Shown one piece after another: positions 39,699 through 40,232 of a DNA stretch of 64,000 nt. Source of the DNA: an uncultured Ignavibacteria bacterium (lineage in GTDB: Bacteria > Bacteroidota > Ignavibacteria > SZUA-365); assembly GCA_913061095.1 (NCBI GenBank), contig CAJXVM010000001.1, positions 186,001 through 250,000 on the forward strand. Direction: 5' to 3'. Each line of letters opens with the position of its first letter. Within the stretch, counting starts at the first letter, position 1. The notes beneath the pieces are model-generated. The model was not told the origin of the DNA. It made no database searches and saw only the letters and a list, made by a program, of their open reading frames with translations. A program made the position numbers and the translations under genes.

Positions 39699-39771
39699 CG
39701 CGGGGTGGAGCAATTGGTAGCTCGTCGGGCTCATAACCCGAAGGTTGTTGGTTCAAGTCCAGCCCCCGCTA
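39699..39771 (+). tRNA. Initiator tRNA (fMet), anticodon CAU
   Basis: A 73-nt cloverleaf. The anticodon loop CTCATAA is closed by the three consecutive G:C pairs (GGG/CCC) that mark initiator tRNAs. The acceptor stem has an unpaired first position (C1 opposite U72), the other initiator hallmark. D-arm GAGC/GCTC and T-arm GTTGG/CCAGC are intact. CCA is not encoded (the DNA reads A-CAA). The terminator follows four bases later. Confidence 0.93.
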
Positions 39772-39775
39772 CAAG

Positions 39776-39806
39776 AAAAGGCAGAGTCATTCGGCTCTGC
39801 CTTTTT
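39776..39806 (+). terminator. Terminator of tRNA-fMet
   Basis: AAAAGGCAGAG pairs with CTCTGCCTTTT around the loop TCATTCGG and is followed by TT-CG; an 11-bp stem with a U-run. An almost identical copy lies at 58624-58654. Confidence 0.88.
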
Positions 39807-39835
39807 TCGTTTTCTGATAATTTTAGGGAGAACCC

Positions 39836-40084
39836 TTGACCTACTATGTCTATGTGCTGAAAAGCAATGAGGGCCACAGGTACATCGGATCAACTGGTGA
39901 CCTGGAACAGCGACTCGCCGACCACAACCGCGGACGGAATCATGCCACGAAGCATGGATCCGGATGGACAATCCTGCATCAGGAGCAGTTCGCGACGCGC
40001 GGCGAGGCGATGAAACGGGAGAAATGGCTTAAAACCGGCATTGGTAGGCAATGGTTAGAGGAACATGTACTGGCTTGGGATTAA
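39836..40084 (+). CDS. GIY-YIG nuclease domain protein (UPF0213-like)
   Basis: 82 residues, read from a TTG at 39836 preceded by AGGGAGAA; the first ATG comes too late in the domain. The GIY-YIG core is complete: 'YYVYVLKSNEGHRYIGSTGD', an Arg in 'LEQRLADHNRGRNHATK', and the Glu in 'REKWLKTGIGRQW'. Stand-alone proteins of this type are frequent in Bacteroidetes genomes, often near tRNA or rRNA genes. It lies exactly between the intact initiator tRNA and its disrupted copy, which hints at a role in tRNA-associated DNA rearrangement; this is inference. Confidence 0.88.
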   Translation: MTYYVYVLKSNEGHRYIGSTGDLEQRLADHNRGRNHATKHGSGWTILHQEQFATRGEAMKREKWLKTGIGRQWLEEHVLAWD

Positions 40085-40113
40085 TCTGAACAACGGGCCG
40101 AAGGACCGCCACA

Positions 40114-40232
40114 GGCGGGGTGGAGTCCGCCGCAGGCGGAGTAGCTCGTCGGGCTCATAACCCGATGGCCGAAGGAGCGCCATGGCGCTCCGCAGGTCCG
40201 CCGCCGGCGGAGTTCAAGTCCAGCCCCCGCTA
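40114..40232 (+). pseudogene. tRNA-fMet pseudogene split by GC palindromes
   Basis: Three blocks match the intact tRNA: the 5' acceptor plus start of the D-arm (40115-40125), the D-stem 3' strand through the anticodon arm (40142-40165), and the T-loop to the 3' end (40212-40234). Between them, the D-loop is replaced by TCCGCCGCAGGCGGA (40126-40140), and the variable loop plus the 5' strand of the T-stem by about 46 bases with GGAGCGCCATGGCGCTCC (40174-40191) and TCCGCCGCCGGCGGA (40197-40211). The T-stem can no longer pair, so it should not be a working tRNA. The anticodon arm is untouched, which argues against a group I intron. Confidence 0.85.

Follow-up and report, generated by a model that had tools for sequence, protein, structure and literature searches.

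A small GIY-YIG nuclease gene between intact and palindrome-split tRNA copies: an apparent minimal mobile element of bacterial tRNA genes

The initiator tRNA locus and its nuclease

On the forward strand of the window (the whole 64-kb stretch of DNA that was analysed), a tRNA-fMet gene, a terminator, a GIY-YIG open reading frame and a second, palindrome-split fMet copy follow one another 5' to 3', an order that a first-pass annotation had read from the sequence and that ARAGORN, Rfam and PF01541 confirm. The tRNA-Met(cat) gene at 39699-39772, which has the GGG/CCC anticodon stem of the initiator type, is the sole intact tRNA at the locus according to both ARAGORN and Rfam, and is the single match to a full-length initiator tRNA gene in the window's genome (G000), with no other found there. 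Its 3' end is followed by a terminator-like hairpin with a T run (39771-39810; an inverted repeat, 88% complementary) and then by the nuclease gene (39836-40084; 82 codons), the TTG start of which is preceded by AGGGAG. In AT-rich DNA upstream of the tRNA, four close copies of ACCCGGGTA, one of them ATCCGGGTA, lie within about 90 bp (39498-39590); these could be operator or iteron-like repeats.

The second copy, on the same strand, spans 40115-40235 and keeps tRNA positions 2-12, 19-46 and 53-75. Its 5' edge is occupied by an imperfect palindrome, ACCGCCACAGGCGGG (40105-40119; a member of a repeat family and a two-mismatch match). Positions 2-12 (GCGGGGTGGAG; 40115-40125) are followed by the D-loop palindrome TCCGCCGCAGGCGGA in place of CAATTG (40126-40140), by positions 19-46 including the anticodon arm (40141-40168; repeat-family match at 96%, one substitution), by a 43-nt double palindrome, GGAGCGCCATGGCGCTCC plus TCCGCCGCCGGCGGA, in place of TTGTTG between variable loop and T-arm (40169-40211), and by positions 53-75 with one further base (40212-40235; repeat-family match at 100%). 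The two long blocks are thus identical to the intact tRNA at 27/28 and 24/24 bases; the anticodon arm and 3' end, earlier described as unchanged, are nearly so, but the base at 40166 differs and base 1 of the tRNA is missing. The shared GGCCGAAGGA-x-CGCCA segment reported in the flanking inserts is likewise present, one base away from where it had been placed, at 40096-40111 and 40167-40182. As an RNA the second copy is not predicted to form a cloverleaf, its palindromes instead pairing with each other. The D-loop site, 12|19, is also used at five other loci (L014, L016, L039, L097 and L103), and in one of these, the congener locus L039, an insert at 47|53 resembles that at 40169-40211 of the window.

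Elsewhere in the window, at 58598-58655, an orphan initiator-tRNA 3' end (positions 53-74) is joined to a tRNA-type terminator hairpin, with neither a 5' half nor a nuclease gene close by. It may be a scar left by an earlier unit; another fragment of this kind is present at G000:C6:191562-191592.

The protein encoded at 39836-40084 matches PF01541 with an E-value of 4.9e-14, and its catalytic residues Y6, Y16, R26 and E62 are invariant in 43 sequences, which places it in the GIY-YIG superfamily. The structure model (mean pLDDT 95.8) has as its fold neighbours the UPF0213 proteins 1zg2 and 1ywl, the Slx1 structure 6seh, and 4xm5, and sequence matches are to 1ywl (E 3.7e-6) and also 1zg2. By nearest fold, by sequence and as a minimal stand-alone domain of 82 aa, it therefore belongs with the Slx1-like/UPF0213 proteins and not with the HEase/UvrC lineage (Seg type), whose members usually carry DNA-binding modules, no extra domain being seen here; the group I intron endonuclease model TIGR01453 scores far below its cut-off against it. 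Slx1 is a structure-specific nuclease that acts on branched DNA. The window protein is homing-element-like by anatomy and distribution, yet lies outside the HEase lineage of GIY-YIG enzymes. In relatives, dN/dS values of 0.07-0.28 show purifying selection on the gene.

Related loci, broken tRNA copies and palindromes

Relatives were gathered from GTDB contigs, from relatives of the window and from ~300 genomes of the window's class, with protein similarity as the sole criterion, to give a final set of 137 non-redundant loci, many of which derive from metagenome bins, with one genome per species. The carriers are Bacteroidota-like bacteria and members of other phyla, and the same arrangement occurs also in a single-contig genome (G008) and in a cultured Flavobacterium (L035). 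An intact tRNA lies within 150 nt of the domain at 120 of the 137 loci, on the same strand in 119, and most of the 17 exceptions are near contig ends or have a tRNA within 500 nt. The linked tRNAs represent ~30 anticodons (fMet, Ser, Pro, Cys, Leu, Arg, Asn and others). Where the tRNA was usable (124 loci), exactly one intact tRNA is present at 122 loci and at least one broken copy at 111, i.e. the tRNA/GIY-YIG/tRNA arrangement, which the first-pass annotation had proposed seeking in other genomes, is widespread. As a control, an extra tRNA piece of at least 11 nt was found in none of 23 fMet loci lacking an adjoining gene; two further gene-free fMet loci (G008, G090) hold arrays in which fMet 3' parts bear palindromes. 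Nuclease-containing tandem arrays are found at L015, L037, L097 and L101. The nuclease-free array of G008 (L095; G008:C1:1533800-1537600) comprises no fewer than eight palindrome-bearing fMet 3' parts and is broken up by an apparent insertion sequence with GGCGCTAACTTAAG ends.

With few exceptions the extra copies are interrupted at a loop or at the boundary of an arm, the remaining tRNA being intact. A palindrome with a stem of at least 6 bp is present at 46% of breakpoints, compared with 7.5% of random positions, and a stem of at least 5 bp in 150 of 180 two-sided inserts. The first letter of an insert is T and the last is A in 112 of 169 cases. Frequent layouts are a lone hairpin of 14-17 nt and two hairpins in tandem, 22 nt (11+11) or 30 nt (15+15) long in total. 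The letters vary with pairing preserved (98.8% of pairs in 22-mer inserts, compared with 80.8% on shuffling; 96.9% and 81.4%, respectively, in 15-mers), so that the hairpins covary. Some loops are split without loss, as at TTC|GAA in the serine tRNA T-loop, G|CT in the Ser-GCT anticodon and 31|32 in Pro-GGG; in other cases (Asp, Gln, Val, Thr, Gly, Pro-TGG) a whole arm is swapped for a hairpin of similar size. The Ser-GCT copies of L025, L030, L113, L184 and L188 all carry, at anticodon G|CT, inserts of 55-65 nt with a conserved two-hairpin layout (TCCGT...GAGATC...CGGA) and differing stems. In many broken copies the entire 5' or 3' half is missing, and most are without their own promoter. Relative to the gene, broken copies occur on the downstream side at 65 loci and on the upstream side at 29, the former often truncated at the 5' end and the latter at the 3' end, and both alike retain sequence on either side of the hairpin.

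Because the insert sequences vary between loci with pairing kept, the palindromes are not copies of one mini-element, as had been envisaged from the window. The exact palindrome TCCGCCNNNGGCGGA occurs twice in the 64-kb window, both times within the second tRNA copy, and 10 times in the 4.6-Mb genome, as against 2 for a mirror-image control, with four of the 10 around a Y1_Tnp gene. It is found in the split tRNA but also around an IS200-like transposase gene. The opposing picture, of palindromes scattered freely with no link to tRNA or GIY-YIG genes, captures half of what is observed: they are scattered, but the link is real. Since palindromes of this form are scattered through genomes both with and without the nuclease gene, those of the broken copies may have been taken up from a wider pool of mobile hairpins. 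In the locus L005 (G000:C8:119929-122943, 1400-2500) an IS200-like Y1 transposase gene (PF01797, E 2.4e-23) is flanked by repeated palindromes, including TCCGCCGCAGGCGGA, in a REP/RAYT-like arrangement that may be their source. In REP/RAYT systems the palindromes form one sequence family with a tetranucleotide tag and are mobilised by a Y1 transposase; in the present inserts the sequence differs between loci, and the flanks have no tag in common. In the G008 array some fMet copies have an extra palindrome and others do not, which suggests that palindromes were added onto pre-existing tRNA copies.

Specificity, locus occupancy and competing explanations

A tree of 131 nuclease proteins (75 columns, few strongly supported forks) tracks the tRNA far more closely than the host family. 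The tRNA label needs 29 changes, compared with a shuffled mean of 73.7 (0 of 200 shuffles as low), and host family 87, compared with 101.8; clades of the nuclease keep to one tRNA identity across families and phyla of hosts. Among fMet loci, hairpin site and nuclease travel together, in that insertion site (D-loop, anticodon arm or T-loop) shows 2 changes with respect to clade on the more careful tree (shuffled mean 11; 0/500); it is not thereby proven that the hairpin marks the cut, and shared descent alone could explain the linkage. For serine tRNAs the comparison shows no signal (7 changes with a shuffled mean of 7.7), the long Ser(GCT) double-hairpin inserts being left out and upstream and downstream copies mixed. 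In some D-loop-clade units (L016, L037) the nuclease frame extends into the tRNA copy. The window protein resembles fMet-linked proteins from other families, e.g. that of G040 at 62%, more than it does the product of the second GIY-YIG gene in its genome (40%). This second gene (L002; G000:C19:72612-75839, 1501-1752) has a tRNA-Asp-linked gene of G001 as its sister (support 98), and no tRNA was found nearby; it is possibly a displaced unit.

Among the window's congeners the fMet locus is not collinear (G001 shares the neighbourhood, rearranged), and the genus g13 was chosen for comparison for this reason. In G133 the orthologous fMet locus is empty, and both of its flanks align with those of occupied loci at 72-77%; G118, G084 and G113 have a bare fMet gene with the same upstream flank. 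The occupied loci carry a D-loop-clade unit in G040 and G066 and an anticodon-clade unit in G073 and G021, and G090 has its nuclease-free array at this locus. The mobility and tRNA specificity of the unit are well supported, and cleavage is presumptive. The first-pass suggestion of a nuclease gene enclosed by copies of its possible target stands firmly, across 137 loci, in its tie to tRNAs and their loops, and presumptively in its appeal to homing.

The unit is probably a nuclease-driven, homing-like minimal mobile element of tRNA genes, one that rebuilds the tRNA into which it inserts and retains a remnant marked by a hairpin. It would consist of a stand-alone Slx1-like GIY-YIG nuclease gene and a partial copy of the host tRNA gene; we infer cleavage, protection and the direction of copying, as follows. 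The nuclease would attack the tRNA gene at one loop, and repair would copy the unit in from a donor. The unit would bring with it the tRNA half otherwise cut off, sometimes with its terminator or promoter, so that a functional tRNA is rebuilt on one side. On the other side, at or beside the site, the remnant would stay split by a hairpin, so that it would no longer be a target. The occurrence of broken copies on both sides of the gene is expected if either half can be restored, and the tandem and nuclease-free arrays would be products of later recombination. The main difficulty for this homing-like reading is that the window's intact tRNA does not differ from that of a gene-free congener and thus has no visible protection from its own nuclease; the enzyme may require tRNA DNA in single-stranded or cruciform form, may seldom be produced or may work in some other way. 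Further points against are that the protein is grouped with UPF0213/Slx1 and not with known homing endonucleases (PMC1564403), that palindromes of this form also lie outside tRNA copies, and that serine tRNAs gave no site signal. It is conceivable, if somewhat doubtful, that the family represents a new class of selfish element, in which an Slx1-like nuclease would recognise the hairpins of tRNA genes as DNA, cut one loop and spread with hairpin DNA that plugs the loop, the tRNA being rebuilt opposite.

The dispersal of the palindrome form with or without the gene, its presence on either side of a Y1_Tnp gene in the window's genome, and the addition of G008 palindromes to already duplicated, nuclease-free copies would also fit two unrelated processes, i.e. 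recombination duplicating the tRNA/gene unit and a Y1 (IS200/RAYT-like) transposase moving REP-like palindromes into the surplus copies. Surplus copies would then be hit because they are neutral, and the GIY-YIG protein would have no role in the palindromes. We consider this combination unlikely, however, as insertion sites recur at identical tRNA positions across host families and move with nuclease clades, the clades follow tRNA identity, and the extra copies are nearly all split at loops or arm boundaries with the rest of the tRNA intact.

The tRNA-specific clades with their clade-specific loops, the conserved pairing of the hairpins and the RNA-metabolism role proposed, from a TrmH fusion, for some Slx1-like prokaryotic proteins (PMC1564403) are also compatible with a toxin that cleaves the tRNA itself at one loop, the split copy serving as an uncuttable RNA decoy or antitoxin. 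Many broken copies, however, with one entire half (5' or 3') gone, would be unable to fold as a tRNA (an objection that applies likewise to a type III toxin-antitoxin system, in which an RNA antitoxin inhibits an adjacent ribonuclease toxin), no cloverleaf is predicted for the window copy, most broken copies lack their own promoter and nuclease-free arrays persist, all of which makes a decoy role improbable. Least credible of all is a tRNA dosage device, whereby the nuclease would provoke segmental amplification of tRNA genes, as SegB does in phage T6 (PMC13096335); such a role would suit the tandem arrays, both those with the nuclease (the four named above) and those without it (G008, G090), but the amplified copies are not functional tRNAs and, with exactly one intact copy at 122/124 loci, tRNA dosage is not raised. 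Two other candidates were set aside: a permissive Rfam search for a group I intron or other known RNA gave no intron match, and a viral contig scan for phage carriage yielded just two 19-residue matches.

Relation to known systems

Mobile DNA commonly lands in tRNA genes; to our knowledge, known mobile users of tRNA genes need integrases or introns. An integrative element that enters a tRNA gene supplies part of a tRNA, by which the interrupted gene is made whole, and a remnant is displaced. The restored gene and displaced remnant of the homing-like reading are similar in this regard; by contrast, neither an integrase nor an attachment core is seen here, and the unit measures only ~0.4 kb. A gene of ~250 bp would apparently be able to colonise the tRNA genes of ~30 anticodons, including a single-copy initiator tRNA gene, and the family would offer a natural set of paired nucleases and targets with which to ask how an 80-residue nuclease discriminates between tRNA genes. 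It would also account for broken, palindrome-bearing tRNA copies and for small GIY-YIG genes filed as repair enzymes.

In the open literature (most subscription papers being outside its scope), no description was found of tRNA-associated GIY-YIG genes or of palindrome-split bacterial tRNA copies, and this probable family of minimal mobile elements, which would invade tRNA genes without killing the host, is apparently undescribed. The UPF0213/Slx1-like prokaryotic GIY-YIG proteins share its fold and minimal size, but are known as predicted repair enzymes; a term search of the GIY-YIG superfamily study found no mention of tRNA gene neighbours of the Slx1-like prokaryotic members (PMC1564403). 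Free-standing GIY-YIG homing endonucleases, which act in intronless homing, lie in tRNA-rich neighbourhoods across phages, and SegB of T-even phages, located among tRNA genes, causes tRNA and nuclease to be amplified in tandem (PMC13096335, PMC2988022). The likeness lies in a GIY-YIG gene among tRNA genes and in tandem amplification. The SegB-type enzymes, however, are phage genes of another GIY-YIG lineage, whereas the present genes are in cellular chromosomes, and neither a hairpin-split tRNA copy nor a one-intact-copy rule is described for them.

The closest parallels to the hairpins come from elsewhere. In the T4 mobA cassette, shielding of the target from the homing nuclease has been attributed, as a proposal, to the 50-nt bypass insert of gene 60 (PMC5009743), so that there, as putatively here, a homing nuclease gene is tied to a short insert that would protect its target; in T4, however, the nuclease is of the HNH type, the target is a protein gene and rescue is by ribosome bypassing, rather than by a rebuilt second tRNA copy. 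The GC clusters and double-hairpin elements of fungal (yeast) mitochondria are short, GC-rich mobile hairpins for which help from an endonuclease has been proposed (PMC4478555), but they are dispersed in mitochondrial DNA and have no tie to one nuclease gene adjoining a tRNA. The tRNA-associated units would be a bacterial counterpart of the hairpin elements in T4 gene 60 and in fungal mitochondria.
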